This document shows positions 7,101-29,094 of a stretch of 32,200 bases of DNA, one piece after another (within the stretch, counting starts at the first letter, position 1; the number at the start of each line of letters is the position of its first letter). The notes under the pieces are model-generated. The model had not been told where the DNA came from and made no database searches. It saw only the letters and a list, made by a program, of their open reading frames with translations. The position numbers were made by a program, and so were the translations under genes. The DNA is from Gammaproteobacteria bacterium (GTDB lineage: Bacteria > Pseudomonadota > Gammaproteobacteria > SZUA-229): NCBI GenBank assembly GCA_026196545.1, contig JAPHSZ010000146.1, positions 1 to 32,200 on the forward strand, given 5' to 3'.

Positions 7101-9718
7101 ATGAGCAGTCGTTCAAAGGACCACTGGAAGATGACAATATCCGCGTTGGTGAATACTTCCTCGAAGAACTGTTCCTCGAATTGGGCAAAGGTAATGACTT
7201 ACGTAGCGCATTCAAAATCGCAACGGCAAAGACCGAGGCGTACACAGCAAGCGGTGCCGAATCGGCAAATAGTGATAATGCGTATTTAGACACCGCTATC
7301 CAGCATCCACTATTAAATGATGATGCGGATAGCACACCTACTAATGCCTTATTTGATAACTCCTCTGATGGCCAGCTGGCTACTGACATCGTGCTTGGTT
7401 TCGATCAGGGTTCGCTCACCAACGATGCGTTTGTGCCTGCGGATATTGATAGCATAAGTGGTACCCAGTATCTGGATAAAAATACCAGCGTTGCCGACTT
7501 AACGTTGTACGCCAATGATCCAAGCCAAGTGAATCAGGCCTATGTTGAAATTCGAGCACCATCAACAACATTGTCCAGTGCGGTAGAAAGCACAACTGAA
7601 CAGTTATCCAATAACTATATTCGTCGTGCCTATCTGCCACCTGTGACTTCAACCGATCCCTATACGCTTAATTATGCAGATTTTGTACAGGCGGGTAAGT
7701 ATGAGATATTCAGCTATGTCAATGATCGTTTCACCGGAGCCCTGTCACCTGCTAAGCGTTCAGTTATATACAAGAATCGTGCAGATACCGCGCCAACGGG
7801 CATAGATCTCGATGGTGTTAATGATGTGCCAAATGCATTTAATTTACTGACGCCTGTAGATAATGCAACTGGCCAGACTATTGTTGGTTTTATCTGGGAG
7901 GCATCAATAGATCCTGATCAGGATGCAGTCACCTACAGCTTCTACCTTGCTGATGATGCAACGTTTACGACCTTTACCCAGGACAATGGTAATGGAACCT
8001 GTACTCAGTTAACTGCGCCCTATTTGCAAGAAGAACTGGAAAGCCCCAGCACCTTTGTCGATGTGCAGGCTCTATTGTGTGACTCAAGAAGCTACGTCTG
8101 GAAAGTGGAAGCCGTTGACGTCTATGGTTTACGCACTGCCAGTACACCATTCACTTACAACACTAATAATACGAATGCCGATGTCGGTGTGATTGTCGCC
8201 ATGGTTAAGAGTGCAACCACCAACCAGCAACTCACCGCCGCGAATATCGCCAACGGTTTTGGTGAAACGGCAATTGCCTCTGCCAGTGTTCTCTATAATG
8301 GCAACTATGTTCTGTTTACTTCTAATACGGGTGTTGGCCAGACGATTACCGCAACACTAGGCAGCTACGCACCTAAAGATGTGGTGATAGGTAGTGTTGC
8401 CAGTGGTGAAACGGTCGAAATCCTGTTTGATATGACGCCGGACTTATCACTTGATACAGACAGTGATGGCGTTATTGATACAGCCGATAACTGCCCAACT
8501 GTTGCTAATGGAGTCGCTCAGGACAATCAACTTGATACCGATGCTGATGGTGTGGGTGATGCCTGTGACACCGATGATGATGGTGACGGTATGCCGGACA
8601 CCTATGAAAATATCTATGCCTTCCTTGATCCTCTCAATGCCGGTGATGCTGCTCTTGATCAGGACAATGACACAATCATAAACCTTCACGAATATCAGGA
8701 TGGCACCAATCCTGAAGTATTCGACATCATTCCTTCTGATGTTGATGGTGATGTTATTGATGATTCGGTAGATAACTGCGTCAACATCTATAACCCTGAC
8801 CAGCTTGATACTGATGGTGATACACAGGGTGATGCCTGTGATAACGATGATGATGCTGATGGTATGCCAGATGCATTTGAATTACTCTATGGATTGAATA
8901 CATTAGTGAATGATGCCATCGGTGATCCCGACCTTGATGGTGTTAGTAATCTCAATGAATACCTTGATGGCACTAATCCCAACGTGGTTAATGGAGATAC
9001 CGTTGACAGTGACAGCGATAGTATCACTGATGTCTATGATAATTGCCCAGCCATTGCCAATGCACCACAGCTTGATACTGATGAAGATGGAGCTGGTGAT
9101 GCCTGTGATAATGATATTGACAATGATAGTTTCGCAAATGCCAGTGATGCATTTCCGTTAGATATTACTGAATGGTTAGACACTGATCTAGATACAATTG
9201 GTAACAATGCCGATTTCGATGATGATGGTGACGGCACACCTGACACCACTGATGCCTTCCCTCTGGATAGTACTGAGGATATAGATACCGACCGTGATGG
9301 TATAGGAAACAATGCAGACACCGATGATGATGGTGATGGCATACTTGATACCAATGACGCTTTCCCGCTTAATAGTGCTGAAGATATAGATACCGACCGT
9401 GATGGCATAGGAAACAATGCAGACACCGATGATGACAACGATGGTATGAGTGACGAGTTCGAAATACTCTACTCACTCAATCCGCTGGATGCCAGCGATG
9501 CGAATAGTGACAGCGATAATGATGGCAAGAGCAACCTGGAAGAATTTCAGGCCGGCACCAGTCCAAAAGCTGCAAACATAGATACAACCGATACGAGTGT
9601 AACAACTAGCAGCGGAACCAGTAGCAGTAGTAGCGGCGTATTACACCCACTACTATTACTGGCACTGTTAATCAATATCGGACTGTTTGGAAGGCGTTAC
9701 TCAAACTCAAAGTCTTAA
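1118..9718 (+). CDS. Giant secreted FG-GAP/VCBS propeller protein with C13-like peptidase domain (copy A)
   Basis: This 2866-residue exported protein starts at an ATG nine bases after AAGGA. A signal peptide ends near residue 39, and the mature N-terminus contains PGLPFTEDF. Residues about 100-1205 hold 21 FG-GAP/VCBS repeats (DxDxDGDxDL ... LYLNNGTxxPF), which bind Ca2+ and build seven-bladed propellers. Next come a Cys-containing Asp-rich segment (about 1293-1405), a putative-Ig (He_PIG-like) domain (1408-1505), a chitobiase-C-like domain (1505-1605), an Ig-like domain (1605-1712) and an MG2-like beta domain (1717-1828). A legumain-like C13 peptidase domain follows (about 1829-2057), with His1917 in VDHGG and Cys1972 in GACYSGGF. 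Ig- and FN3-like domains and a regulatory-CarboxypepD-like domain extend to about 2442, then thrombospondin-3-like Asp-rich repeats to about 2824. The end is Ser-rich, then hydrophobic (2841-2857), then Arg-Arg, like a C-terminal sorting or anchoring signal. It is probably a cell-surface or secreted Ca2+-dependent peptidase or adhesin; the substrate is unknown. Confidence 0.88.
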   Translation: MLTNNRSAKITARKSLIHLLALPVLTIVSLLQTTSTIAATPGLPFTEDFSDTALMNSSKSVASWDTKAQILVQSFRNARSGGLISSSASGKNISDDVLSAGAMDIGDVDGDGDPDLVLSDTFVGINIYLNNGTDEPFLNAVKQTITPPVSEINGDIPRVNDLALADIDNDGDLDLITAQSGQYADPTAVNLLYLNNGSGTPFDAVTPQKITEDLHSSQAVVVDDFNGDGYLDVVIGNDECCSQTLAKTTRLYLNNGTASPFAGVTGTDVSADEDITEDVHAADFNGDSLIDLLVINDTVTHKVYLNDGIGDPFDSAVAINVGAGTDSSDAAIGDMDADGDIDIVVATYGAVNLLYLNTGLADPFTGVVGINITDEVDYTYSIDVGDIDSDGDLDVIAGTSSGKTNKIFLNDGLSIPGFGTSGYQVSSDALGTLKVLFHDLDLDGDLDLVASNFDSVSRYYLNNITVNPFNDSPAVAVSDIESYTFSMQLVDLNKDGNLDIVDNNQVYLNNGTSLPFDSVTGTALGGSGNAIAIGDINGDGNIDIVLGKSGASQNIYYLNDGSGATFSNNLIGNSTFDANDTQQVALGDVDNDGDLDLVTANYAFTSTNGVSTRHNKLYLNNGTSEPFLNVQGIIIEPAVTNGYATKSVYLGDLNNDGNLDLISGAAPYSSKIFFGDGSSDPFNQATPISFGLSFEYINDIEAGDVDGDGDIDFITVASSPYHNRLYINDGSSTPFDGATGEDISSDDSTTNGIDLADVDTDGDLDIILAKTGNSTIIFNNGTSSPFSDKNEINLSEDSNVFFSIKTGDIDKDGDLDIVVGTGGVDSYYLNQSASTPVLAVKQNDSGVTIDATRTTAISDLNNDGYPDLITGNDGVNNLYINNQSLNPFFGVTPIPITSDNHNTYGIDVGDLNNDGHNDLVAGNVNGNSYYYLNDGNGLPFDSIANGEVIGTGATMSMGIDIADINQDGRLDIIIGNNQLDTLPNQIYINNGTGTPFADAPISIDANDFYGTWSIEAVDIDLDGDLDIVTGNFGTRNRLYVNDGSNTFGTSSGIDITTDQHFTRDVAIGDVNGDGKPDIVVANTSQVNRLYLNDGVGNPFDTIPASSISTDADPTFSVSLFDIDKDGDLDLIAANDGSSVTSPSMLYLNNGTSDPFGGVTGIILVPGSYPINSSSVADLDKDGSNDIILGGFNATNLLIRSQPFDNAKGFAESLEVDTDTDILYATLSPTQTVLNHTSINWYLSNNGGMNFYKVQPGIEFQFPTFGDDLRWKVEMNSLTSLYSPYVDALTITARYDHDQDLVADDVDICVGTYDPDQLDNDTDNWGHAFDGGDACDIDDDNDGIADTEDLFPFNYDESADTDGDCGAIDYNLTTSGNGCGDASDLDIDGDGIEFDGVVLTGVVDEFLFNVAPSISGSPSTDATPDSEYSFTPVISDGGDGPSLTASLTFSGGTETNLPNWLSFNTSTGALTGVPSNDDYGTLSSIVITVNDSVQTATLASFNINVLDTRAPETFAVPGGGNFNEDTTVTIACFENIGSGCASIHYTTDDTAELSAFTTVASSSTTVTIPSSAGSANLRFYSKDASGNVENVKTETYNFDLDYPVVSITTPSDGSIIPGQGGTVDSISGSSSDVGTGIVDVSIQISDGTNSVQTFGGSLVSGAAAWLSVSGADGVWSYDTTGLNWTSDTVYTITARAIDGAGNTITTSHNFTFYNTAAATTTLDLALTNSSIPNGETTDATLTFNRLNDLSADLTGVPLELHITKPDASIVVVHGNANFSGNLTLSQLGDGSDISFTVPGVYSMVAKFTDTTTYPNLAATSSNPVNLLVGTSAGYALLVQGKLSNEEGLESHNKTANRIYETLKDRGFVDQDIYYYNYDINQTGVDGVPDKATIQTTLEGLATEVQNRPAPVYVIMVDHGGKALDGLEARFFMDTETITPTELDLWLTNLENNMDALDVQLKVDNKRVVIIGACYSGGFISTVSGDNRIIITSATEDEQSFKGPLEDDNIRVGEYFLEELFLELGKGNDLRSAFKIATAKTEAYTASGAESANSDNAYLDTAIQHPLLNDDADSTPTNALFDNSSDGQLATDIVLGFDQGSLTNDAFVPADIDSISGTQYLDKNTSVADLTLYANDPSQVNQAYVEIRAPSTTLSSAVESTTEQLSNNYIRRAYLPPVTSTDPYTLNYADFVQAGKYEIFSYVNDRFTGALSPAKRSVIYKNRADTAPTGIDLDGVNDVPNAFNLLTPVDNATGQTIVGFIWEASIDPDQDAVTYSFYLADDATFTTFTQDNGNGTCTQLTAPYLQEELESPSTFVDVQALLCDSRSYVWKVEAVDVYGLRTASTPFTYNTNNTNADVGVIVAMVKSATTNQQLTAANIANGFGETAIASASVLYNGNYVLFTSNTGVGQTITATLGSYAPKDVVIGSVASGETVEILFDMTPDLSLDTDSDGVIDTADNCPTVANGVAQDNQLDTDADGVGDACDTDDDGDGMPDTYENIYAFLDPLNAGDAALDQDNDTIINLHEYQDGTNPEVFDIIPSDVDGDVIDDSVDNCVNIYNPDQLDTDGDTQGDACDNDDDADGMPDAFELLYGLNTLVNDAIGDPDLDGVSNLNEYLDGTNPNVVNGDTVDSDSDSITDVYDNCPAIANAPQLDTDEDGAGDACDNDIDNDSFANASDAFPLDITEWLDTDLDTIGNNADFDDDGDGTPDTTDAFPLDSTEDIDTDRDGIGNNADTDDDGDGILDTNDAFPLNSAEDIDTDRDGIGNNADTDDDNDGMSDEFEILYSLNPLDASDANSDSDNDGKSNLEEFQAGTSPKAANIDTTDTSVTTSSGTSSSSSGVLHPLLLLALLINIGLFGRRYSNSKS
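9146..9460 (+). repeat. Three 105-base in-frame repeats in giant gene A
   Basis: Three 35-residue units each begin DAFPL and contain IGNNAD and DDD. Units two and three are nearly identical in DNA, including the stretch GATATAGATACCGACCGTGA at both. Each is a thrombospondin-3-like calcium-binding unit. The near identity suggests recent duplication, and loss or gain of a unit would keep the reading frame. Confidence 0.85.
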
Positions 9719-14216: not shown

Positions 14217-17200
14217 ATGATTTTTACCACAAGAAGTTTCGGAATTTTACCCTGTAAGCTATCCACGCTGATTCTGGGCTTACCGGTTCTTTTTATAACT
14301 ATTGCCCTGTACCAATCTAGTGCTTATGCGAATGAACCCGGCTTACCCTTTACAGAAGAATTTATTGATGCCGACCTGCGCGCTGTTGGCACCACGGCCA
14401 ACTGGGATACATTAGATCAATTTGTAAAACTGGGTAAGCGTAGCCCTAAAAAGCTGGGTCTGACCGCAGATACATCTACAGGGATGGATGTATCATCAAA
14501 CCTCTATAGTACATTCGCGGTAAAGCTTGCAGATATTAACGGTGATGGCACCAATGACATTATTACCGGTAATTACGTCTATATCAGGGATCCTGATACG
14601 TTTGACAGTTATGCATCAATAATTCATCTGTCTGATGCGACAAACACAATTAGATCCATCGATACTGGCGATATAGATCAGGATGGAGATCTGGACATTG
14701 TGTTCGGTGCACAGGGTATTAATCTTCTGTACTTCAATAATGGAACTGATACCCCTTTTGAAGGGGTATCAAAAACTTATATCACCAGTGATAACGATTA
14801 TACGGTTTCAATACAGGCTATTGATGTTAATGGTGATGGCTGGCTGGATGTTGTTGTTGGTAATGAATATACAAATGACAGGCTTTATATCAATAATGGA
14901 ACTAGCAATCCATTTGATGGTGTAACCGCTCAAACCTTTGGTGAACCCAGTTCGGCACGTACTAATGCTGTTATGGTTGCAGACATTGATTATGACGGAA
15001 ACAATGACATTGTTAGCGTATACAACAATGGTCAAACAGGAACCAATGTTAAATACATACTGAATAATGGTAGCAGTACAGAACCCTTTCTGGGACAGAC
15101 TAGCAAGGACATTTCTAACATTACAAACGGTGAACTTCAAAACATTGACCTCGGTGATGTTAATGGTGACAAATATATAGATATTGTCGTCTCTGGTGAA
15201 ATCGACAGTGGCGTCCCAAGCTATCTATTTATAAACAATTCGGCTAACACACCTGGTACGCCCTTTGATACATCAACCAGTGCTATTTCAATTAGTAGCG
15301 ATACAGATCGAAGTGTAGGCATCCATTTACTCGATGCTGATGATGATGGTGACCTTGATGTCTACGTGGCAAATTATTCAGCCCGGGGTAAGCTATATGT
15401 TAATGACGGCAGTAATGAACCATTTGGTGCCAGCCTTGAGGGTATCGATATCTCCAATGATTCAATTGTTGCCCACTCTTCAGGAATCGGTGACATCGAC
15501 AACGATGGTGATATAGATATAGTCGTGGGTGCCAATGGCATCGACCGCCTCTATCTTAATAATTCATCCAGTAGTGCGTTTGATGGTATTGCTGATGATA
15601 TTTCAACTGACGCCGATCAGAGTCGTGGATTAGCATATGGCGATGTCGATAACGATGGCGATATTGATATTATTACCAGCGGCCTCTCTACTCAAGCAAA
15701 ACTATATAAAAATAATGGCACCAATAAACCCTTTGATGGCGTCAGTGCTACCATAATTACGGATGCTCACTCAGGCGCGTATTTAGTGTATTTGGCCGAT
15801 ATTAATCACGATGGGCGACTGGATCTCATTAATGGCGGAGCCAGCGGTCAGCTTTCAGAAATATTTTTTAATAATGGGAGCTCAACCCCCTATACAGCGG
15901 CAAACATGCAAACCTTTGGTGTATCCACATTTGTCCTGGATATTGCTACAGGTGACGTAAATAATGATGGAAAAACTGATCTTATACAGGGTACACGGCT
16001 CTATCTTAATGATGGAACTTCAACACCCTTTTCCAGTGGTGGCATTGATATCGATAGCGGAGGGTTTGATAAAGCACTGGGTGATGTCGACAATGACGGT
16101 GATCTAGACCTGGTTGAAGCCACCCTTAGTGGCGCCTGGCTATATTTAAATGATGGTGATAGCACACCATACAGTAATGGAAAAATAGAAATAGGTACGG
16201 GACTACAATCGAATTCAATTGAATTATACGATTTAAACCAGGATGGCTATTTAGATGCCATTATTGGGAGTTTTGACGATTACACAAGAGTTGTATTAAA
16301 CGATGGCACCTCCACGCCGTTTGATGGAAACGCTATGTACCTTGGAACCAATACAGCCTCTACCGACATCAAGCTTGGTGACTTTAACCTTGATGGTATT
16401 ATTGACATTGCCAGCGTTAATGAAGATGGAAAACGTGTAGAGGTTCTCTATCCAGACGTATCTGATTACACTTTTGTTAATAGCTGGAGAGTACCAACAA
16501 ACTTCGCTTCTGATGAAGCAATATCTGGCTATAAACTTGCTGTTGCAGATTTTTCAAACGATGGCAAACCCGATATTGTTGTCGCCGCCAACGGTATTAA
16601 CCGTATTTATTACAACCAGAGCGCATCAGCAGGGTATTCAAGCATAACAAGATCACAGGTAGCCTCATCAACAGGCGCATATAGATCACTTGATGTTACG
16701 GCCGCTGATTTTAATAATGATGGCGCACTGGATGTAGCATTTGCCAACTATGATACATCTACCTATCCAAATACTGTTGTTCTTAATAATAAAACATCAT
16801 CACCATTTGGTGGCTCATATCCCGCTACTATTCCCTACACATTACAGTATCTCGATACAGATAAGCATTCTAGCTGGGGTATCGATTCTGGCGATATTAC
16901 TGGTGATGGTTATCCAGATATTGTGGTTGCCAATACCAGTGCAGCATCAAGAGTCTATACAAATGATGGGACAGGTTTATTTGGCTCAACATCTGGTTAC
17001 AACCTTGGTAGTGGCACTACAGCCAGGGACGTCAAACTGGCAGATTTGAATGGTGATGGTAGGCTAGATGCTGTTCTCGCTAATTACTCAACAACGCTTG
17101 ACAACCAAATATTTCTAAACAACGGTTCCAGCTACGCTTTGAGTGTGACACCAATCAGTGTCTATACTGGTGATGCGCACTATTCTATGACAGTTGAACT

Positions 17201-20200
17201 GGCTGATATTGATAATGATGATGATATCGATATCATGGTTGGTAATAATGGGAGCAACTACACCTACCTAAATAATGGCACGGGCACATCATTCTATAAA
17301 TGGGAGTTTTATAGCGGCGCACCGGGAACAGATACTCAAAATTCTTATGGAATTGCTATTGGCGATGTTAATGGTGATGGTTGGCCAGATGCCGTAGTGG
17401 GCAATTATGGCACTGTCAACAAACTTTATATCAATGACACGCTAAGTAACCCGTTTACAAACGCCGGCATTGACATAACGACAGATGCAGACTATACATT
17501 AGATATTCTACTGGAAGATATTGATAACGATGGCGACTTAGACGTAATTGTTTTCAATGCTTCTGGAGTTAATAAGTATTATCTAAATAATGGCACTGCT
17601 ACACCTTTTTCTGATGCAGTGGGTATTGAACTTACAACATCAAGCAAAACATCTTATGGTGCTGTAGCAAGGGATTTTGATAATGATGGCGTAAAAGATT
17701 TTGTCGTTGCTAACTATACGCTTAGTAACGACCTGTTCAGGTCTAGTCCATATGCTTTAAACAAAAACAAAGTCATTTCAGAAGAAGTTGATACCGATAC
17801 CGATATCCTCAAGGCAACATTAAATGGATACGTGCCGCTAGACTGGAACAACTCTGTGGATTTCTATATGAGCAATAATGGCGGCACACAGTTTTTCCAG
17901 GTACAGCGCGGAGTAGAATTTACTTTCCCAACCCAGGGTGACGACCTTCGCTGGAAAGCAGAATTGCACTCTTTGACACCGCTCAGATCTCCTCTCATCG
18001 GTGATGTAGTCATTGATGCAAAAGTTGACCACGATCTCGATTTTGCGACAGATGATATTGATTTATGCATAGGAACAGCTGACCCAGACCAGCTTGATAA
18101 CGACAGTGATGCAGTGCCGGGCGTGTCTACAGGGCCAGATGATGGTGGCGATGCCTGTGATATTGACGACGACAATGATGGTGTTGGTGATACTGAAGAC
18201 CTGTTCCCGTTCAACTCTGCTGAACAAGGTGATTACGATGGTGACTGCGGTGCTATCGACTACAACCTGCCTACTTCTGGTGATGGCTGTGGTGATAATT
18301 CCGATACCGACATTGATAACGACGGCATTCCTAATGTTTCTGATACGTTTATGTTCAATGTTGCACCGACTATTAGTGGCACACCCGGCACGGTAGCGAC
18401 ACCTGAAAATACTTACACGTTTACACCGGCAATTTCTGATGGCGGTGATGGCCCAACCCTTTCAGTATCTGTAACAGCAGATGGCGGCTCACTGCCAGCA
18501 TGGCTCACCTTTAATCCTGCCACAGGCGTATTAACAGGCGTACCTTCTAACGATAACTACGGCACGATCAGTAATATTGTTCTGACCGTGAGTGATGGCA
18601 CCGAACAGGTCAGCCTGCCTGCATTTAATATCAAGGTGATCGATACACGTGCACCCGTGACCAACGCCTCACCCAAAGAAGGTGTATACAACTCCGATAT
18701 TAGCGTTTACCTGTCCTGTAGTGATGGTATTGGCTCAGAGTGTGCAAACATCTATTACTCAACTGATGGAGGCATGCAATATAACCTGGCGCTTGATTAT
18801 GCAATTATTGATATCCCCGCGAGTAGTCACGAAACGATATTAAAATATTACTCCGTCGATAACGCAGACACTCCAAATTATGAAGTTGAACAGACTCAGG
18901 TATATACCTTTGATAACGGCCTTCCTGTTGTTACGATTACTTCACCTGTAGCGGACTCAATCTTAACTTCTGTGAATTCTATTAATGGTAGTTCATCGGA
19001 CAATGCAGACTTTGATACCGGAATTAAGAAAATCGAGCTACAGATTACCGATGGCATTAACTCAGTACAGGTGACAGGTGGATCTTTGGTTGAAGGTGCG
19101 CCTGCATGGATTCTAGTGAGCGATGATATTGGTGCGTGGAGCTATGACTGGAGCTACAATACTGAGGGTTTGTGGACCAGTAGTGAGGTGCCCTACACCA
19201 TCACTGCACGCGCCACAGATTATGCGGGCAACACAGCCACCACTAGTGTGACTTTCTCTTACTTCTCAGGCACACCCGCGACCACCACACTGGATTTATC
19301 ACTGACCAACACCAGTGTTCCCGTTGGCCAGACCACCGATGCATTCTTAACATTAACCCGTTTGAATGATCTGAATGCAGACCTGACAGGCATACCACTA
19401 GAACTGCACATCACAAAACCAGATGGGTCACCTGTTGATCCTCTCATCATAGATGAGGCTAACTATACAGGTAACCTGACCCTGTCTGACCTGGGTGATG
19501 GTGTAGATGTTATTTTTGATCAGGCCGGTGTTTATTCGATGGTCGCTAAATTCACCGACACCGCTACCTACCCTAACCTGGCAGCCTCGACCTCCAACCC
19601 CATTAGTTTACTGGTGGGTACGTCTGCTGGTTACGCCATTATTATCCAGGGTAAACTTTCTAATGAAGAAGGCCTGGATTCGCATAACAAAACGGCTAAT
19701 CGTATTTACGAGACCTTTAAAGATCGCGGCTTTGCTGAAGAGGATATCTTCTACTTTAACTATGACACCAACCAGACCGGTGTAGATGGCCTGCCGGATA
19801 AAGCCACTATCCAGAAACTGATTGAAGGTTCCGCCAATGGTGTAAGTGATCCACAATTACTCCAGGACTTAATCCCCAATGGCCTGGCTGCGGAGATTGA
19901 TGACCGCCCTGCTCCTGTTTACCTGGTTATGGTTGATCATGGCGGTAAGGCTGTTGATGAGCTGGAAGCACGTTTCTTCATGAATGATGAAACCATACTG
20001 CCAAGCGAACTCAACCTGTGGCTGGGTAGTCTTGAAGCCAACATGGATGCATTAGATGCTCAGCTTAAAATAGATAACAATCGTATTATTATCATCGGTG
20101 CCTGTTACTCGGGCGGCTTTATCTCAGGCATCACTGGTGATGGCCGTATTGTAATTACCAGTGCTACTGGGGATGAACCTTCTTATAAGGGGCCGATAGA

Positions 20201-23009
20201 AGACGATAACATCCGTGTCGGTGAGTACTTCCTCGAAGAGCTGTTCCTTGAGCTGGGTGAAGGTAACAACTTGCGTGACGCTTTCAAAGTCGCTACAGTC
20301 AAAACTGAAACCTACACCAAGGAAGTCAGTGGTGACACGTCAACCAACAGTGACAATGAGTTCCTCGATACCGCCGTGCAGCATCCATTACTGGATGATG
20401 ATGCCGATGGTTTAGGCACCAACGCCCTGTTTGATAGCTCATCAGACGGCCAGAGCGCACTTGATGTGGTGCTTGGTTTTGATCAGGGGTCATTGACCAA
20501 CGATGCCTTCATTCCTGCTGCTGTTGAGAGTGTGAGTGGCACCCAGTATCTGGATAATGCTACCAGCAATGCGGTGCTAACGATGTATGCCAATGACCCT
20601 TCTCAGGTCAATCAGGCTTACGTTGAGATCCGTACACCAGGAACGGTACTTATTGATGCGGTAGAAAGCACCACTGAGCAGTTATCCAGTGACTTCATTC
20701 GCCGTGCTTATACTCCCCCAGCAGCACCGGGTGAGCCGTATACGCTCGACTACACTGCATTTACTGAAGCGGGTAAATACGAGATATTCAGTTATGTGAA
20801 TGATCGTTTCACGGGTGCATTATCATCAGCTAAACGCTCAATCATTTACAAGAACCGTGAAGATGGCGGTGATCCCAATGATCCACCTACGCCATTTAAC
20901 CTGCAAACTCCAACTAATGGTGACACAGGCCCATATATCACCGCCTTCACCTGGGATGCATCGACCGATCCTGATCAGGATGCGGTGACCTACAGCTTCT
21001 ACTTGGCGGATGACACCAGCTATACCACCTTCACCAAAGATACTGGCAGTGGCTGTACCCAGCAAAATGCGCCTTATGTCCAGGAAGAACTCACCAGCCC
21101 AAGCACCTTCGTTGATGCCGTAGCGGGACTCTGTGATGGCCAGAGCTACGTCTGGAAAGTTGTCGCGGTCGATCCTTATGGATTAAAGGCCGTTAGCGCT
21201 AACTTCAGCTATACCGTTAGTAATCACCTCAATGCCGATCTTGGTGTGATCGTGGCCATGGTCAAGAGCGCCACCACCAATGCACAGTTAACGGCAGCTA
21301 ATGTTATTAATAGTTTTGGAGAAACAGCTACCCCAGCAGAAAGTGTTTTGTATAACGGTAACTATGTGTTAATTACAGGTAACACGGGTACAGGCCATAC
21401 CATTACTACAAACAAGACTGGATATTCAGAAACCGAGGTAAGCATACCTAATATCAACAGCGGTCAGACGGTTGAGATCCTGATTGACATGCCACCAGTG
21501 ACTGTTGATAGTGATAGTGATACTGTTTATGACAACGTAGATAACTGTCCGGTCGATGTTAATGTCAGTCAGGCTGATTTAGATAATGATGGTGTCGGTG
21601 ATGCTTGTGATGATGACATCGACGGTGATGGCATGCCCAATAATTATGAAGATAGTTATGTCTTCCTCGATCCATTAGTTGCGAGTGATGCAGGTCTGGA
21701 TGAAGATGGTGACACCCTCAGTAATCTTACCGAATATCGTGATGGTACCAATCCTGGCGTATTCAATGTAATTCCATCAGATATTGATGGCGACACCATT
21801 GATGATACGATCGATAACTGCGTGGATATATCTAACCAGGATCAGGCTGATTATGATGGTGATGGCCTGGGCAATGTCTGTGATTATGATGACGATGATG
21901 ATGGCATGCCCGACAGTTATGAACAGGACTACGCCTTCCTAAATACACTCGATGCAGCAGATGCCTCTTTAGATGAAGATGGTGACAGCATGAGTAACCT
22001 TGTTGAGTATCTTGGCGGTACCGATCCTGGCGTATTCAATCTACCTGATACGGATGGTGATGGTATTGACGATACCGTTGATAACTGCCTGTATATTTAC
22101 AACCAGGATCAGGCTGATTATGACAGTGATGGCATAGGCAATGTCTGTGATCATGACGATGATGATGATGGCATGCCGGACAGTTTTGAAGAGAGCTACG
22201 CCTTCCTAAATACACTCGATGCAGCAGATGCCTCTTTAGATGAGGATAGCGATACCATGAGTAATCTTGAAGAATATTTGGGTGGTACTGACCCCAGTGT
22301 GTTTGATCTACCTGATACAGATGGTGATGGTGTTTATGATATATTTGATAACTGTCCAGATGTATATAACAACAAACAAAAAGATTACGACAGTGATGGC
22401 ATCGGTGATAAGTGTGATGATGATGATGACAACGACGGTATGTCAGATGCCTTTGAAGATCAGTACAAGAGCAATGGTCTGGATCGGCTCGATGAGACCG
22501 ATGCCTCTGAAAACATAGATGGTGATGCCTTTACCAATCTTGAAGAGTTTCTGTTTGGTACGAACCCGGCAGTCACCAGCCTTGATAACGATAGTGATGG
22601 GTTACCTGACACCTTCGAGCTTGCAGTAGGCACTGATTACACCATCGCTGACAGTGATGGTGATAACTTAACCGACTATGAAGAAATTAACTACGACGGT
22701 GATCTTTACAGTTATACTCCCGGCAGTGACACTGATCCCAACAATGTTGATACCGATGGTGACACATTCCAGGATGATATAGACGTAAATCCGTTAATAC
22801 CAGATGTTATTGGTGATATTGCTCCAGTATCCACACCTGATAGCACTGTTAATGCAGCAGACTATTTGCTTATGATACGGATTGTACAAGGTGAGATAAC
22901 ACCAACAGCTGAACAACTGCAAAATGGTGATTTATACCCTGTTGGCTCACCTGACGGTGTGATTAATATACAGGATCTTATCTTGTTGCGACAGATGGTC
23001 ATGCCGTAG
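14217..23009 (+). CDS. Giant secreted FG-GAP/VCBS propeller protein with C13-like peptidase and dockerin domains (copy B)
   Basis: This 2930-residue paralogue of the product of 1118-9718 has an ATG eight bases after AAGGA and a signal peptide ending at AYA, near residue 38. Residues about 95-1182 hold 21 FG-GAP/VCBS repeats, the same number as copy A. Then come the Cys-containing Asp-rich segment (about 1270-1385), Ig-like domains (1379-1680), an MG2-like domain (1688-1800) and the C13-like peptidase domain (about 1800-2038). The peptidase has His1908 in VDHGG and Cys1963 in GACYSGGF. Compared with copy A it has an insertion before the His strand (NGVSDPQLLQDLIPNG). Ig/FN3/CarboxypepD-like domains reach about 2428, followed by thrombospondin-3-like repeats. 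The last 65 residues (2866-2930) form a dockerin-like pair of Ca2+ loops (GDIAPVSTPDSTVNAAD and GDLYPVGSPDGVINIQD) in place of copy A's hydrophobic tail. B is probably held at the surface by a cohesin-type partner, while A may be membrane-anchored; this is inference. Confidence 0.88.
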   Translation: MIFTTRSFGILPCKLSTLILGLPVLFITIALYQSSAYANEPGLPFTEEFIDADLRAVGTTANWDTLDQFVKLGKRSPKKLGLTADTSTGMDVSSNLYSTFAVKLADINGDGTNDIITGNYVYIRDPDTFDSYASIIHLSDATNTIRSIDTGDIDQDGDLDIVFGAQGINLLYFNNGTDTPFEGVSKTYITSDNDYTVSIQAIDVNGDGWLDVVVGNEYTNDRLYINNGTSNPFDGVTAQTFGEPSSARTNAVMVADIDYDGNNDIVSVYNNGQTGTNVKYILNNGSSTEPFLGQTSKDISNITNGELQNIDLGDVNGDKYIDIVVSGEIDSGVPSYLFINNSANTPGTPFDTSTSAISISSDTDRSVGIHLLDADDDGDLDVYVANYSARGKLYVNDGSNEPFGASLEGIDISNDSIVAHSSGIGDIDNDGDIDIVVGANGIDRLYLNNSSSSAFDGIADDISTDADQSRGLAYGDVDNDGDIDIITSGLSTQAKLYKNNGTNKPFDGVSATIITDAHSGAYLVYLADINHDGRLDLINGGASGQLSEIFFNNGSSTPYTAANMQTFGVSTFVLDIATGDVNNDGKTDLIQGTRLYLNDGTSTPFSSGGIDIDSGGFDKALGDVDNDGDLDLVEATLSGAWLYLNDGDSTPYSNGKIEIGTGLQSNSIELYDLNQDGYLDAIIGSFDDYTRVVLNDGTSTPFDGNAMYLGTNTASTDIKLGDFNLDGIIDIASVNEDGKRVEVLYPDVSDYTFVNSWRVPTNFASDEAISGYKLAVADFSNDGKPDIVVAANGINRIYYNQSASAGYSSITRSQVASSTGAYRSLDVTAADFNNDGALDVAFANYDTSTYPNTVVLNNKTSSPFGGSYPATIPYTLQYLDTDKHSSWGIDSGDITGDGYPDIVVANTSAASRVYTNDGTGLFGSTSGYNLGSGTTARDVKLADLNGDGRLDAVLANYSTTLDNQIFLNNGSSYALSVTPISVYTGDAHYSMTVELADIDNDDDIDIMVGNNGSNYTYLNNGTGTSFYKWEFYSGAPGTDTQNSYGIAIGDVNGDGWPDAVVGNYGTVNKLYINDTLSNPFTNAGIDITTDADYTLDILLEDIDNDGDLDVIVFNASGVNKYYLNNGTATPFSDAVGIELTTSSKTSYGAVARDFDNDGVKDFVVANYTLSNDLFRSSPYALNKNKVISEEVDTDTDILKATLNGYVPLDWNNSVDFYMSNNGGTQFFQVQRGVEFTFPTQGDDLRWKAELHSLTPLRSPLIGDVVIDAKVDHDLDFATDDIDLCIGTADPDQLDNDSDAVPGVSTGPDDGGDACDIDDDNDGVGDTEDLFPFNSAEQGDYDGDCGAIDYNLPTSGDGCGDNSDTDIDNDGIPNVSDTFMFNVAPTISGTPGTVATPENTYTFTPAISDGGDGPTLSVSVTADGGSLPAWLTFNPATGVLTGVPSNDNYGTISNIVLTVSDGTEQVSLPAFNIKVIDTRAPVTNASPKEGVYNSDISVYLSCSDGIGSECANIYYSTDGGMQYNLALDYAIIDIPASSHETILKYYSVDNADTPNYEVEQTQVYTFDNGLPVVTITSPVADSILTSVNSINGSSSDNADFDTGIKKIELQITDGINSVQVTGGSLVEGAPAWILVSDDIGAWSYDWSYNTEGLWTSSEVPYTITARATDYAGNTATTSVTFSYFSGTPATTTLDLSLTNTSVPVGQTTDAFLTLTRLNDLNADLTGIPLELHITKPDGSPVDPLIIDEANYTGNLTLSDLGDGVDVIFDQAGVYSMVAKFTDTATYPNLAASTSNPISLLVGTSAGYAIIIQGKLSNEEGLDSHNKTANRIYETFKDRGFAEEDIFYFNYDTNQTGVDGLPDKATIQKLIEGSANGVSDPQLLQDLIPNGLAAEIDDRPAPVYLVMVDHGGKAVDELEARFFMNDETILPSELNLWLGSLEANMDALDAQLKIDNNRIIIIGACYSGGFISGITGDGRIVITSATGDEPSYKGPIEDDNIRVGEYFLEELFLELGEGNNLRDAFKVATVKTETYTKEVSGDTSTNSDNEFLDTAVQHPLLDDDADGLGTNALFDSSSDGQSALDVVLGFDQGSLTNDAFIPAAVESVSGTQYLDNATSNAVLTMYANDPSQVNQAYVEIRTPGTVLIDAVESTTEQLSSDFIRRAYTPPAAPGEPYTLDYTAFTEAGKYEIFSYVNDRFTGALSSAKRSIIYKNREDGGDPNDPPTPFNLQTPTNGDTGPYITAFTWDASTDPDQDAVTYSFYLADDTSYTTFTKDTGSGCTQQNAPYVQEELTSPSTFVDAVAGLCDGQSYVWKVVAVDPYGLKAVSANFSYTVSNHLNADLGVIVAMVKSATTNAQLTAANVINSFGETATPAESVLYNGNYVLITGNTGTGHTITTNKTGYSETEVSIPNINSGQTVEILIDMPPVTVDSDSDTVYDNVDNCPVDVNVSQADLDNDGVGDACDDDIDGDGMPNNYEDSYVFLDPLVASDAGLDEDGDTLSNLTEYRDGTNPGVFNVIPSDIDGDTIDDTIDNCVDISNQDQADYDGDGLGNVCDYDDDDDGMPDSYEQDYAFLNTLDAADASLDEDGDSMSNLVEYLGGTDPGVFNLPDTDGDGIDDTVDNCLYIYNQDQADYDSDGIGNVCDHDDDDDGMPDSFEESYAFLNTLDAADASLDEDSDTMSNLEEYLGGTDPSVFDLPDTDGDGVYDIFDNCPDVYNNKQKDYDSDGIGDKCDDDDDNDGMSDAFEDQYKSNGLDRLDETDASENIDGDAFTNLEEFLFGTNPAVTSLDNDSDGLPDTFELAVGTDYTIADSDGDNLTDYEEINYDGDLYSYTPGSDTDPNNVDTDGDTFQDDIDVNPLIPDVIGDIAPVSTPDSTVNAADYLLMIRIVQGEITPTAEQLQNGDLYPVGSPDGVINIQDLILLRQMVMP
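21505..22600 (+). repeat. Four in-frame repeats of about 267-273 bases in giant gene B
   Basis: Modules of about 89-91 residues recur, each with a DNC motif, a Ca2+-binding CD-DDDD-DGMP(D/N) or similar segment, and a SNLxEYxxGT(D/N)P end. The two central copies share long near-identical DNA, for example the bases encoding YAFLNTLDAADASLDE at about 21930 and 22200. They are thrombospondin-3-like. Such repeats could recombine to change protein length in frame. Confidence 0.8.
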
Positions 23010-23113: not shown

Positions 23114-24016
23114 ATGAAGACGCTGAAGATATTGTTAGCCCTGCTGCTAGTGAACTTAATGGGTTGCGCTGGCCATCAAACATTTAATCATCTGGCTCGT
23201 TCAAACGATACTGTGGCAGTTGCGGCAGGATGGATGCAAACATTTTCACGGGATAGGATAAGGGTGACCATTACAGATGATGATGGAACAGGAACGCAGA
23301 CAGTCTATGAGCCTGGTGACCCTAACATACGCGCGGTTATTAACCTGTATCCTGATCCACTGTCGAATATAGTTGTGTCACGCGAAACGGGAGACGCAGT
23401 ATCTCCAGGTGCAGTTGATTACGCTTCTCAAATTGATTATTGGTACACTCATGGTGATGATGACTGGTGGCAAACAATTGTGTATGTAAACCTGCCCAGT
23501 AATATGACTATAGATAAGGATGCCACCATACTGATTGAGTCCATTGACCCAGTTACAGCTGAGGTAGTAGAAACAGCGAGTTCATTTGTTTCTATCGTGT
23601 CAGGCGTTGGTGAAGCGGCCCCATTTTCTGCACAAAACCCCTGGGGCGGTGGATCTTATTTTAATATGACTTCTGACAACTTAAAATCCCTGGAAAGATC
23701 AGGTCACTACCAAATTGATTTTGATGGGACAGAAATACCTGCGGCCTTATCATTAGAAATAACACATGCTGCGGGTAATGTATTTGTAGCGAACCCCACA
23801 AGTGAAAAAAAGAACCTTCACTGGACGGATGATGGTGTAACCACAAAAATAATTATATTGCCGACAACATCAGCGGGTTTCACTGATTTAGCTGACCTCA
23901 AGTTTTATATAAGCGGGCTTAATATTGATAACGTTGTTGTTTCGAACTTTGAGGCCTATGACCAGAATGGAGATGTGATAGCAACTGTGACGGCTAATAC
24001 GCCTACTAAACGATAA
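23114..24016 (+). CDS. Outer-membrane-type lipoprotein, possible cohesin-like domain
   Basis: The protein has 300 residues; GAGG lies nine bases upstream of the ATG. The signal peptide ends in a lipobox (LMGC, Cys18), and Ala at position +2 suggests Lol sorting to the outer membrane. I recognise no named family with certainty. The rest reads as two beta-rich domains. Its C-terminal 90 residues run beta strand (IPAALSLEITHAAG), loop, strand (TKIIILPTT), then GFTDLADLKFYISG and VVVSNFEAYDQNGDVIA. This resembles the last strands of cohesin modules, where a VxFxxxG strand precedes a DxNGxxx end. It directly follows giant gene B (104-base gap, no convincing terminator), which ends in a dockerin-like module, so it may be that protein's surface receptor. 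The cohesin assignment is inference. Confidence 0.75.
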   Translation: MKTLKILLALLLVNLMGCAGHQTFNHLARSNDTVAVAAGWMQTFSRDRIRVTITDDDGTGTQTVYEPGDPNIRAVINLYPDPLSNIVVSRETGDAVSPGAVDYASQIDYWYTHGDDDWWQTIVYVNLPSNMTIDKDATILIESIDPVTAEVVETASSFVSIVSGVGEAAPFSAQNPWGGGSYFNMTSDNLKSLERSGHYQIDFDGTEIPAALSLEITHAAGNVFVANPTSEKKNLHWTDDGVTTKIIILPTTSAGFTDLADLKFYISGLNIDNVVVSNFEAYDQNGDVIATVTANTPTKR

Positions 24017-24158: not shown

Positions 24159-24845
24159 TTAAGCTGCAACCTCCATCGCCACACAATTTTTACCGTTATC
24201 CTTTGATTTCATCAATGCGTCATTGGCACGTTCAAAGAGTGTGTCAGGCGTATCGCCTTCCGTTCTGAACTGGGCCACACCAAAGCTGCAGGTCAGATGA
24301 ATAGTTGAATGCATTGGCGTACGACTTATTTTGATGCACAAACGTTTAGCAATATTTGATGCCGCTACCAGATCATTTCGATCCACCATCAAGGCAAATT
24401 TACCATCACCATGACGGGCAACAATGTCATGAGTACGTTTCGTGTTATTCATTATAAGTTCACTTAAGCTGATTAAAACCTCATCACCAACGCTATAGCC
24501 ATAAACGGTATTAATGCTATTAAAATAATCAACATCAATCAGAATGAGTGAAAAGTTAACCTTGTTTTCACACCAGGATTTAAGCTTCTTCCGATAATAC
24601 GAACGGCTAAACGCCTGCGTCAGTGGATCGCGTTCATTCTCCTTCTGCAGATCAATAATCAGCAGAAACAAGCTGGCAGTTAATAGCCCAAGGATAAGCC
24701 CGGTCCCACTCAGCGCTGCAATATGCAGAAGCTTAACCTGGTTAGTCATCAACAGATACATGCCTGCGCCTAATGATAAAACCAGCCAGAAAAAAATGGA
24801 ATTCATATAAATATAATTAGTGTGTGATTTAGTTATAGTCATCAT
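24159..24845 (-). CDS. Membrane protein with degenerate GGDEF domain
   Basis: This 228-residue protein has two N-terminal membrane helices (about 14-33 and 41-64) and one cytoplasmic GGDEF domain (70-228). Most family signatures are present: DPLTQAFSR, LIDVDYFNSINTVYGYSVGDEVL and CSFGVA. The catalytic signature, however, reads GDGKF (146-150) where GGDEF or GGEEF is expected, so the catalytic acidic residue is Lys149. The RxxD inhibitory c-di-GMP-binding site (R137-D140, RTHD) is intact and correctly spaced. It is therefore probably a c-di-GMP receptor rather than a cyclase. AGGGA lies about nine bases before ATG 24845; a second ATG follows directly. It is convergent with the lipoprotein gene and divergent from the small gene at 25119. 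Confidence 0.88.
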   Translation of the reverse strand: MMTITKSHTNYIYMNSIFFWLVLSLGAGMYLLMTNQVKLLHIAALSGTGLILGLLTASLFLLIIDLQKENERDPLTQAFSRSYYRKKLKSWCENKVNFSLILIDVDYFNSINTVYGYSVGDEVLISLSELIMNNTKRTHDIVARHGDGKFALMVDRNDLVAASNIAKRLCIKISRTPMHSTIHLTCSFGVAQFRTEGDTPDTLFERANDALMKSKDNGKNCVAMEVAA

Positions 24846-25341: not shown

Positions 25342-26292
25342 ATGCACATTTATCACCAGTCATCTTCCCGGTCAGCTCTCTGCAATACCTGTACACCTTT
25401 TATTACTGACGGTGGTCTCGAAACTGAATTGATCTTCAAGAAAGATTACGACCTGCCCGAGTTCGCCTCCTTTCCATTGCTGGAAACTGAACAGGGTCAG
25501 CAGGATCTACAGGAATACTACGGGCACTATGTCACTATCGCAAAGCAGTACAATACTGGCCTGATATTAGAAGCGCCCACATGGCGAGCTAGCACCGATT
25601 GGGGTTTAAAGCTCGGCTATAATGCCGAAGCGCTTGATCGCATCAACCACAAAGCTATACAGTTTCTGGATGACTTCAGAGCACAGGCCAATCTTAATAC
25701 TCCCTGCATAAATAGCGGCTGCATCGGCCCTCGCTATGATGGCTACAACCCCGAGTGCTATATGAGTGCCGAACAGGCAGAGTACTACCACAGTTCTCAA
25801 ATCAAAAGCTTCAGTGAAGCTGGGGCCGACATCGTCACTGCCCTGACTATGACCAACATCAAAGAAGCATGCGGCATAATCAAATCAGCAATGAAAAATG
25901 ATGTCGAAGTTGTGATTTCATTTACCACTGAAACTGATGGCCGGTTACCCTCAGGGGAAACACTACAGCAAGCCATTGAGCAGCTTGATCAGATAAGCAA
26001 TACCTATCCGCTGTATTACATGATCAACTGCGCACACCCCACACATTTTGAAACCGTGTTGCAACAAAACCAGCCATGGCTAAATCGCATCGGCGGCATA
26101 CGTGCCAACGCATCATGCAAAAGCCATGCAGAACTCGATGAATGCACCGAACTGGATGCCGGCAATCCGCAACAGCTGGGACAGGAATACAAACAGCTAA
26201 AAACGCATTTGACTAATTTAAATGTGGTTGGTGGTTGCTGTGGCACCAGCCATCAGCATGTTTCAGCTATGACGCAGGCGTGTTTTGGCTAG
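25342..26292 (+). CDS. Homocysteine S-methyltransferase family protein
   Basis: This 316-residue protein has the S-methyl_trans TIM-barrel fold. Near the N-terminus is DGGLETEL (23-30). The Zn-binding Cys set is Cys230 in MINCAHP and Cys299-Cys300 in VGGCCGT, at the usual places. The family transfers a methyl group, for example from S-methylmethionine or S-adenosylmethionine, to homocysteine to make methionine in the cytoplasm; the donor cannot be told here. No clear ribosome-binding site precedes ATG 25342. The stop of the small gene is 31 bases upstream, so translation may be coupled to it. A bidirectional terminator-like hairpin follows. Confidence 0.92.
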   Translation: MHIYHQSSSRSALCNTCTPFITDGGLETELIFKKDYDLPEFASFPLLETEQGQQDLQEYYGHYVTIAKQYNTGLILEAPTWRASTDWGLKLGYNAEALDRINHKAIQFLDDFRAQANLNTPCINSGCIGPRYDGYNPECYMSAEQAEYYHSSQIKSFSEAGADIVTALTMTNIKEACGIIKSAMKNDVEVVISFTTETDGRLPSGETLQQAIEQLDQISNTYPLYYMINCAHPTHFETVLQQNQPWLNRIGGIRANASCKSHAELDECTELDAGNPQQLGQEYKQLKTHLTNLNVVGGCCGTSHQHVSAMTQACFG

Positions 26293-26300
26293 TTGCTAGA

Positions 26301-26344
26301 AAAAAGCCCGGTTGCTGAATGAGGTTTAACCAGGAATGCTTTTT
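26301..26344. terminator. Bidirectional terminator-like hairpin between convergent genes
   Basis: AAAAAGC (26301-26307) pairs with GCTTTTT (26338-26344), and an inner CCGGTT/AACCAGG stem has one bulge. A runs precede and T runs end the structure, so it could work in both directions. It overlaps the stop codon of the minus-strand gene at 26343. Confidence 0.65.
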
Positions 26345-26795
26345 AGTGCCGGAACAAAACACCCAGCATAATTACTTTTTCATAGTCATCCGGCTGATGA
26401 AAAAAATGTTGTTGTCTGACGGTAATGCCTAATTTTTTTGTCAGGTCAAGCACCAGCCCTGCCTCGGCATAATACTGGTCATTAAATTCATCAACATCAA
26501 GATTGTAATCTAACGAAATTCCCGCTCCCAAAAACAACGAGATAGTGCCTCTAAACACATAGCCACCACCAAAGTCCAGCGCCAGACTATCGCCAACAAT
26601 ATCAGATTCACGGTGAACCAGGTCGATATGTGCTTCCATATCTTTTTTAAATTGTAGTGCACCGATAGAGGTGATTTTCCGGTCGTTCAAATCAGAAGAC
26701 CTGTTCTGTTCGAGTCGTAGATTGCTCTGGTCGGCCAGTGCGGCAGTAGTTGTTATAAGCAGCACAAAAAAGCCTGCAAGGCTGTTGAAGGTCAT
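26343..26795 (-). CDS. Small putative outer-membrane beta-barrel protein
   Basis: From ATG 26795 the protein has 150 residues: a signal peptide (about 1-21, ending TAALA), then about 129 residues. The reading frame is open up to 26873, but the extra 26 residues come before the hydrophobic signal and look non-coding, so I chose the internal ATG; no clear ribosome-binding site supports either. The mature part has alternating strands with Gly-rich turns (LDFGGGYVFRG, SLFLGAGISLDY, YYAEAGLVLDL, YEKVIMLGVLFRH), suggesting a small eight-stranded barrel. No specific family or function was recognised. It lies downstream of the GGDEF-EAL gene on the same strand, with about 100 bases between them. Confidence 0.65.
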   Translation of the reverse strand: MTFNSLAGFFVLLITTTAALADQSNLRLEQNRSSDLNDRKITSIGALQFKKDMEAHIDLVHRESDIVGDSLALDFGGGYVFRGTISLFLGAGISLDYNLDVDEFNDQYYAEAGLVLDLTKKLGITVRQQHFFHQPDDYEKVIMLGVLFRH

Positions 26796-26895
26796 CGTGG
26801 TACGGTCTCTGTATAGTGGTAGGGAGGAAAGCGGGTACTGCCGGAAAGCGTGTGCAGCATAGCACATCGGCAACAGGACTATTCAGATTAAATGA

Positions 26896-29007
26896 TCAGT
26901 CATCCGCCACCAGCAGTTCATCCAGTTTGCTGGTGATATCATCTACCGATAAAGGCCGGCTGAACAGGAAGCCCTGCATCGCATCGCAGCCTTTGGCCTT
27001 GAGGTAGTCGCGCTGGGTTTCGGTCTCGACGCCATCGGCGACCACCGACAGGCCAAGTGCATGCCCCATCGAGACAATCGCCGAAATCAGTGCGCTGTCA
27101 TCACCCGCAGTTTTTATTTGGGCGACAAAGTGGCGATCGATCTTCAGCGTGTTCACCGGCAGTCGGTTTAGATCGCTGAGCGAGGAATAGCCGGTGCCAA
27201 AATTGTTCAGTGCAATGCCAACGCCGAGCCTCTTCAGGCCGGTGATGATCTCAATCACATCATCGGTGCCGGACTGTAGCGCGGCCTCGGTTAGCTCAAG
27301 CTCGAGCAGCTCGGCCGGCAGTTCGGTTTCTTCGAGATAGTCGGTTAATACCGACAGCAGGTCAAAGCGCCTGAACTCCAGCGCCGAGATGTTCACCGCC
27401 ACCGGCACGGTCAACTGCCCACCCAGAAACCACGCATTCGCCTGGCGGCAGACATCATCGATCACCCACCGGGTTATCTCCGAGATCAGGCCGCTGTCTT
27501 CGGCAATCGGCAGGAACACCTCGGGTTCGACCAGGCCGTGTTCCGGGTCCTGCCAGCGTATCAGCGCCTCCATGCCTACCATCCTGCCGCTGGCCGTATC
27601 CAGCTTCGGCTGGTACTCCATGAAGAACTGGTCATTGTCGATGGCGTTGCGCAGGTGGGCGTAAATCCGCAGGTGCTCGTGCATCACCGTATCGGTCTTC
27701 TCGGAAAAGAACTGGTAGTGGTTTTCGCCGTGCTCTTTGGCGCGGTACATCGCGATGTCGGCGTTCTTGATCAGCTCCTGTGCGCCCAGTGAATCATCCG
27801 GGTAAACCGTCGCACCGATACTGCAACTGATCATCACCTCGCTGTCGTCGACCGCCACCGGTTGATGCAGCGATTTTAAAATGCGATCACAAACCACGGT
27901 CGCATCCCACGGCCCGTCGATGTTATCCAGCAGCACGATGAAGTCATCGTCCGCATAACGGCAGACGATGTCACAGGCCTTGTCGTGCAGCTCCGCCGCC
28001 TCGTCGGTGTGCTTGCGCAACGAGCCATCCAGCCGCGCCGCCATTGCCTTTAGCACGCACTCGCCGCCAGCCTGGCCGTGGCTGTCAGTGATCGCCTTCA
28101 GGTTGTCCAGCTTGATAAACAGCAGGCCGAGGCAGTGTTTCCTGGTGCTGGCAACCGCAATCATGTTTTCCAGGTAATCGCCAAACATGCGCTGGTTCGG
28201 CAGCCCGGTCAGGCTGTCGTGGTTCTCAAGGTAACTGGCCTCCTCGTGCGTCTGGCGCAGGTCCCTGTTGAGCTCGAACAGGTGCCGGCCGAGCTCACCG
28301 ATTTCATCACCGCGGCCGGTATCAATCGCAACATTGAGATTGCCCTCGCTGATTGCCTGTGCCGCCGCGTTCAACACCGCAACCGGTTTCACCACCAGGT
28401 AGCGCAACAGCACAAGTACGGCAACAAGCACGAACAGCGCCACCGCCAGCGTCATCATAATCACACTTTTACCCTGCGCATAACTGGCCCTGCGCACATC
28501 GGCCTCTGGCAGAAAAGCAATCACATTCATGCCGGAGGCTAGCTCCTTGCGATAGGCAAACACAGTATCACCCGCCACCTCGATTTCAGTGCGGATCGCA
28601 CCGCCTTCCATCACCAGCCTGTCGCCAAGCAGGCGCAAATGCTGTTCCGCCGAAGCCAGCGGAATGGTTTTTGGCAGGAACAGGATCTCCCCGGCCGCGT
28701 TGATCACCAGCATAAAGCCGCTGTCACCCACCACCGAGGTGCTGATCACATTCTCCAGGCTGGCCAGGTCCGGCACCATCGCCTCGCCATCAGCCACGCT
28801 GATGCCTTCATTGGAAAGCAGCTCCCTCGCCATCAGCGTGGCATCAACGCTATGGCGCGATACCTGGTCGAGCAGCGTGGTAATGCCGGTATCGAAGCGT
28901 GCCTCGGTCGATTGTTTAATCTTGCAGAAAGAGACCACGCCAAGCGTTAATACAGGAATGATGATCAGCGGTGTCAGCAATAGAATTGTTTTTGTTTTTA
29001 GCTTCAT
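26896..29007 (-). CDS. Cache-HAMP-GGDEF-EAL protein with degenerate catalytic motifs
   Basis: The protein has 703 residues from ATG 29007; an in-frame TTG at 29013 is a poorer start. Numbering below includes those two extra residues. A membrane helix (about 9-29), a periplasmic Cache-like sensor (30-180), a second helix (183-208), HAMP (209-262), GGDEF (265-437) and EAL (448-700) follow in order. The GGDEF signature reads ADDDF (354-358), and Lys301 replaces the first metal-binding Asp, so cyclase activity is unlikely. In the EAL domain, EAL (482-484), the Asn541 motif and ELTE (573-576) are kept. The metal-binding DDFGTG motif reads NNFGTG (603-604), and AEGVE reads ADGVE. Phosphodiesterase activity is therefore also doubtful. 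It may be a c-di-GMP-binding or protein-interaction sensor. The gene is clearly richer in G+C than the left part of the window. Confidence 0.92.
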   Translation of the reverse strand: MKLKTKTILLLTPLIIIPVLTLGVVSFCKIKQSTEARFDTGITTLLDQVSRHSVDATLMARELLSNEGISVADGEAMVPDLASLENVISTSVVGDSGFMLVINAAGEILFLPKTIPLASAEQHLRLLGDRLVMEGGAIRTEIEVAGDTVFAYRKELASGMNVIAFLPEADVRRASYAQGKSVIMMTLAVALFVLVAVLVLLRYLVVKPVAVLNAAAQAISEGNLNVAIDTGRGDEIGELGRHLFELNRDLRQTHEEASYLENHDSLTGLPNQRMFGDYLENMIAVASTRKHCLGLLFIKLDNLKAITDSHGQAGGECVLKAMAARLDGSLRKHTDEAAELHDKACDIVCRYADDDFIVLLDNIDGPWDATVVCDRILKSLHQPVAVDDSEVMISCSIGATVYPDDSLGAQELIKNADIAMYRAKEHGENHYQFFSEKTDTVMHEHLRIYAHLRNAIDNDQFFMEYQPKLDTASGRMVGMEALIRWQDPEHGLVEPEVFLPIAEDSGLISEITRWVIDDVCRQANAWFLGGQLTVPVAVNISALEFRRFDLLSVLTDYLEETELPAELLELELTEAALQSGTDDVIEIITGLKRLGVGIALNNFGTGYSSLSDLNRLPVNTLKIDRHFVAQIKTAGDDSALISAIVSMGHALGLSVVADGVETETQRDYLKAKGCDAMQGFLFSRPLSVDDITSKLDELLVADD

Positions 29008-29094
29008 GCCCAAGAATATAAACTAGTTAAAGTGGGTCGTACAGTATCGGATTATTATTAAGCCTGGCATTATGTCATTTCAACCAGCAGGAGA

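Follow-up and report, generated by a model that had tools for sequence, protein, structure and literature searches.

A GGDEF-only protein with a degenerate signature

The 32,200-nucleotide stretch of DNA analysed here (the window; contig JAPHSZ010000146.1 of assembly GCA_026196545.1, a gammaproteobacterium of lineage SZUA-229) carries on its reverse strand an open reading frame (ORF), 24159-24845, whose 228-residue product, hereafter the window protein, is a GGDEF protein with an altered active site. Its membership of the GGDEF domain family is established by both profile match and fold. Pfam places GGDEF (PF00990) at residues 72-220 (E 6.3e-28, 98 bits vs a cut-off of 23.8), and the AlphaFold2 model, built from a 10-row alignment (mean predicted local distance difference test score 87.0, predicted template modelling score 0.73), has long helices at 6-34 and 39-71 followed by the GGDEF fold. 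The structures of PleD and WspR rank top when this model is compared by Foldseek, and PleD is the best match in a sequence search of the PDB (E 7.7e-18). Judging from the model and from hydrophobicity assessed by eye, the N-terminal helices are probably transmembrane (TM) segments, two in number. No sensory domain was found in the protein beside this helical hairpin and the GGDEF domain.

Searches at family and order level covered the same 54 genomes. In the family search 10 of them gave a match at E <= 1e-26, and three copies fall in the clade of the window protein. The first of its two relatives there, an ortholog from another genus of the same family (genome G010, locus L003), is 46% identical, has the same architecture and carries GGEEF and RIYD. 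Of the second, from the same genus (genome G006), only a remnant spanning roughly residues 117-227 is left; it contains an in-frame TGA and carries GGEEF and RQSD. The features of the window protein are:

24159..24845 (-): GGDEF-only protein, 228 aa, degenerate signature GDGKF (ORF list, Pfam, AlphaFold2)
24396..24410 (-): active-site (A-site) signature G146-D-G-K-F150; both clade relatives (G010, G006) have GGEEF here
24426..24437 (-): primary inhibitory site (I-site) R137-T-H-D140 (alignment, PleD mapping)
24564..24566 (-): N94, at the place of PleD R313 (PleD mapping)

Loss of the catalytic site

The window protein was compared with 20 other short members of its subfamily; this set of 21 was drawn from loci L001-L026 after exclusion of the longer proteins L001, L014, L017, L019 and L020. 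L002, L003 and L004 were test rows and lay outside the reference set that defines the invariant columns; the partial L016 was left out of the tree and of the mapping onto PleD, and L004 out of the mapping. The A-site columns were assigned from the PleD numbering and contacts, which are taken here as given.

The earlier note had read GDGKF where GGDEF is expected, and the translation and the 21-member comparison confirm it: GDGKF is unique to the window protein, and the remaining members (20/20) have GGEEF. PleD D327, N335, D344 and K442 are retained as D104, N112, D121 and K215, and PleD K332, D336, H340, G369, E370, E371 and R446 have become N, T, Y, D, G, K and K. The substitutions at the family residues K109, D113, H117, D208, Y212 and R219 had escaped the earlier note. 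Its reading that cyclase activity is lost is well supported.

Does the change single out catalysis? In 18 subfamily members 43 columns of the domain are invariant; 15 of them are changed in the window protein, nine of these in that protein alone, and seven in the G010 ortholog. At the invariant columns kept by the ortholog, the window protein has changed at 6/11 A-site positions, 0/2 I-site positions and 3/23 others (p = 0.033 for A-site against other invariant columns), and the ortholog itself matches the family state at 11/11 A-site columns. At variable columns the two proteins differ at 64/111, a count that includes the ortholog's own changes. The A-site columns are indistinguishable from these (p = 1.0) and the other invariant columns are distinct (p = 1.4e-4). 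With D113, D208 and Y212 added to the A-site, the contrast with other invariant columns becomes p = 4e-5. A selective loss of catalysis is less well served by counting 147-149 as one event (p = 0.076) or by omitting H117 (p = 0.085); the contrast is a modest one, depending on a chosen set that was itself built on assumed PleD contacts. On these counts, catalysis in the window protein is no longer conserved, and the fold largely is.

The window protein lacks the combination expected of an active cyclase, GG(D/E)EF together with the residues that contact Mg and phosphate (contacts that we presume from PleD), and has almost certainly lost diguanylate cyclase activity. A GTP-binding regulator of the CC3396/PdeA type is also unlikely, as the places of PleD G369, E370, K332 and R446 are all replaced.

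Could the protein nevertheless be an active cyclase? D104, N112, D121 and K215 are in place, and degenerate yet active signatures exist, such as the AGDEF of VCA0965 and the SGDEF of ECA3270 described in passages of PMC3974145. However, these two are altered only at the first residue of the motif and retain the acidic residues, and the same passages report that an AGDAF mutant of VCA0965 is inactive. In the window protein both acidic residues have been replaced, by G and K, and K109 and R219 are gone as well, making activity very improbable. A sequencing or assembly error in the draft genome is less credible still. The contig does come from a 237-contig assembly, and a second genome of the species was not found, but the changes extend over many codons of an open frame and include a whole-codon insertion, a pattern that differs from scattered base errors. 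By the alignment, the A-site loss is genuine and specific to the window copy, and RxxD is the ancestral state. A literature search for GDGKF together with GGDEF found nothing, a weak negative given that signatures are seldom printed.

What remains of the inhibitory site

Five residues separate D140 from G146, as in PleD, so that R137-D140 forms an RxxD correctly spaced from the signature, the arrangement of degenerate receptors; the earlier note was right on this point. Its description of the I-site as intact holds for the primary RxxD but not beyond it. The place of PleD R313, which we take to be the secondary-site arginine, is occupied by N94 in the window protein. The G010 ortholog has E there, and of 17 others 12 have K and 5 have R. 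Furthermore, one extra residue lies between the preceding helix and RxxD, in the window protein alone among the 21 members. The distance from D121 to G146 is 25 residues, against 24 in 19/20 others; in the twentieth, the G006 remnant, it could not be measured by script and the alignment shows no insertion. Elsewhere in the window genome, the spacing also varies in three GGDEF domains. The place of PleD R390 is retained as R168. Compared with PleD, the I-site of the window protein is only half intact, its primary part being retained.

How much does the retained RxxD say about function? It is present in 21/21 short subfamily members compared and is thus best regarded as an inherited state, which makes its survival here only weakly indicative of a receptor. 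The motif also occurs in 13/18 other GGDEF domains of the window genome with a script-recognised signature; five of the genome's 24 GGDEF matches fell outside this tally, their signature being unrecognised by the script. According to passages of PMC3974145, active sites are degenerate in 24% of cyclases and 53% of GGDEF domains carry RxxD (that paper's own count gives 44%), and degenerate sites still bearing RxxD are therefore to be expected often. In a degenerate GGDEF protein the motif may be mere inheritance and is by itself no proof of a c-di-GMP (cyclic dimeric guanosine monophosphate) receptor.

Passages of PMC3838380 describe RxxD as needed but insufficient for feedback inhibition, a second arginine from the secondary site or another domain being required, and name R390 in this context together with D273 of Pseudomonas aeruginosa YfiN (TpbB). 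They report that for YfiN, which has RxxD but a degenerate secondary site, isothermal titration calorimetry detected no binding of c-di-GMP. RxxD is kept and the secondary arginine replaced in both proteins (D273 and N94), but YfiN is an active cyclase, has a HAMP domain and lacks an equivalent of PleD R390, the place held by R168 in the window protein. PelD and PopA have been described as degenerate GGDEF domains whose I-site binds c-di-GMP, and the window protein is likewise degenerate with RxxD. However, PelD draws its second arginine from another domain, and no second cytoplasmic domain able to donate one was found in the window protein; an arginine elsewhere in it, or one supplied by a partner, might still clamp the c-di-GMP dimer. 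Measurable c-di-GMP binding by the window protein is possible rather than probable.

The earlier note had gone from RxxD to a probable c-di-GMP receptor, comparable to PelD and PopA, that may connect the signal to nearby surface proteins. Taken further, this reading makes the protein a dedicated receptor of the PelD, PopA or YdaK type that controls the giant surface proteins. Such receptors do exist (PopA, PelD, CdgI and YdaK), and the normally spaced RxxD and R168 are in favour of this reading. On the other side, the motif is ancestral, YfiN is reported not to bind in the passages cited, and here the place of R313 is N94, with an insertion beside RxxD and an arginine-donating domain wanting. 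The GGEEF ortholog has E at that place, so that canonical cross-linking was probably weak already while the A-site was intact. With the neighbourhood described next, which is unconserved in the genomes compared, a dedicated receptor is decidedly unlikely.

The gene neighbourhood

The neighbouring genes, from the right, are:

26896..29013 (-): HAMP-GGDEF(ADDDF)-EAL protein (Pfam), the EAL gene below
26343..26873 (-): putative exported protein, the 'OM protein' below; hydrophobic N-terminus by eye, no Pfam family
25342..26292 (+): homocysteine S-methyltransferase (Pfam), separating the OM gene from the GGDEF gene
23114..24016 (+): putative lipoprotein (lipobox by eye), convergent, no Pfam family
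14217-23009 and 1118-9718 (+): giant FG-GAP proteins with a C13-peptidase-like region

The order from the right is thus EAL (-), OM (-), methyltransferase (+), GGDEF (-), lipoprotein (+) and giant FG-GAP (+). Homologs of the methyltransferase at E <= 1e-40 occur in 2/54 family genomes, the window genome included; the gene looks inserted and was probably acquired.

The earlier note had tied the GGDEF gene to a module of surface proteins, a link that does not survive comparison with genomes G001, G005, G006 and G010. In G006 the cyclase remnant comes directly after the EAL and OM genes and is itself followed by a cation-efflux gene; no giant protein is present among the ORFs of this 15.8-kb stretch, and the peptidase region of the giant is unmatched in G006. 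The G010 cyclase is flanked, in a 20-kb stretch without giants, by a polysaccharide deacetylase and a carbonic-anhydrase-like gene. G005 (71% complete), a congener like G001, has the lipoprotein about 180 bases from the OM gene with no cyclase between, its EAL gene being on another contig. Conversely, G001 has a giant FG-GAP protein, and no cyclase, after its OM gene, and its EAL genes are on another contig. Giants and cyclase occur independently in the genomes compared, and the conserved neighbourhood expected of a regulator of the giant FG-GAP proteins is absent from them.

The C13-peptidase-like region of the second giant shares 90% identity with one in G001 (contig C40), vs 65% between the EAL proteins of the window genome and G001, which suggests a recent exchange. 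The neighbouring HAMP-GGDEF-EAL protein is also degenerate in the window, with ADDDF and KxxD. Its homologs have GGNEF (G005) and GGDDF and GGDEF (two G001 copies), and the G006 signature was not recovered by the script. EALIR is found in 4/5 copies examined, the pattern having been missed in the G001 GGDDF copy.

Origin and rate of evolution

The G010 ortholog and the 5'-truncated G006 remnant both have GGEEF, and for this reason the window protein, by its sequence, derives from a short membrane diguanylate cyclase of the ordinary kind. The three form one clade with 100/100 support, with end branches of 1.66 (window), 0.44 (G010) and 0.25 (G006 remnant, 42% of columns filled) changes per column. 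Within the clade the window protein groups with G010 and not with its congener G006. This pairing (95/78) falls short of what the program marks as firm support and could reflect a tree error, given the long branch and the short fragment, or horizontal transfer. L001, a 1130-residue GGDEF-EAL protein (29%) and the sole locus from one scan of the genome_contigs set, was rejected as an ortholog.

In relative-rate counts against the G006 remnant, the window protein has the larger number of unique changes with 19/19 outgroups (p < 0.05 in 15), and against the G010 ortholog with 17/17 (p < 0.05 in 11); these outgroups are mutually related and so are not independent tests. The asymmetry is weaker in the neighbouring EAL gene (p 0.0087 and 0.32) and absent from the OM gene (p 0.11 and 1). 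Between the window gene and its G010 ortholog, codon positions 1, 2 and 3 show 91, 64 and 144 differences over 225 codons; with the proteins 46% identical, synonymous sites were regarded as saturated. In neutral simulations, no run out of 2000 (0/2000) stayed free of stops at 296 amino-acid changes, and 0.75% did at 120. Neutral drift over the whole excess is incompatible with the open 228-codon frame; a shorter neutral phase is compatible.

These data bear on the main rival explanation, decay, in which the cyclase is expendable in the genus, the window copy is heading towards a pseudogene and RxxD is a leftover. The long end branch and the relative-rate excess of the window copy, set against weaker or absent asymmetry next door, agree with it, as do the one-residue insertion and the loss of D113, D208 and Y212. 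The fast branch, the reduction of the G006 copy and the absence of a cyclase beside the OM gene in G005 and G001 suggest an expendable gene and weigh against a retained function; so does the finding that a small neutral excess (22-30 changes) leaves 27-38% of simulations stop-free. However, the frame is open, 20/23 of the other invariant residues and both residues of RxxD are retained, and differences are in excess at third positions. Decay is a serious contender, though we would not expect it.

A possible non-catalytic role

The explanation that we favour, if tentatively and at rather less than an even chance, is that the window protein would be a lineage-specific, catalytically dead descendant of a short membrane cyclase with a non-catalytic role like that of Escherichia coli CdgI. 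The A-site contrast, the GGEEF of both clade relatives, the open frame, the codon-position counts, the confident fold model and the CdgI precedent speak for it. Weighing the alternatives together, such a role appears most likely, ahead of decay, which in turn appears ahead of a dedicated receptor for the surface proteins. The protein would make no c-di-GMP and, if it acts at all, would contact other GGDEF domains from the membrane, a contact that c-di-GMP at R137/D140 might modulate. The window genome has 24 GGDEF matches and 6 PilZ matches, and on this evidence a c-di-GMP network is present. Alternatively, and somewhat unlikely in our view, the protein may be a cyclase in transition, in which catalysis was recently lost and the fold and primary I-site are under selection, making it a signal-gated GGDEF partner without the secondary arginine.

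CdgI (YeaI) is located in the membrane. Like the window protein, it is a GGDEF protein without EAL and with a degenerate A-site, according to passages of PMC5635695; its I-site is intact, as is the primary part of that site in the window protein. The passages report that CdgI binds c-di-GMP, makes contact with several further GGDEF domains, is unexpressed under standard conditions and is of unknown function; the difference is that binding and contacts were measured for CdgI, whereas the window protein is known from sequence. Bacillus subtilis YdaK is likewise a membrane protein with a degenerate GGDEF domain and an I-site (passages of PMC7064775), but has four TM segments, lies in the yda operon (assumed to be for an exopolysaccharide) and has shown I-site binding. 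In the same passages, the YdaK I-site is required for contact with the cyclase DgcK.

A dead GGDEF domain with a partial c-di-GMP site is common and already well known, and the case has little significance beyond the window genome itself. The window, G010 and G006 copies do provide a compact example of a cyclase gene inactivated, kept and truncated within one family. Three further proteins of the window genome (L046, L047 and L048, on contigs C102, C94 and C114) appear by eye to combine a receiver domain with a degenerate GGDEF domain, and their RxxD motifs read RTED, RPTD and REGD.
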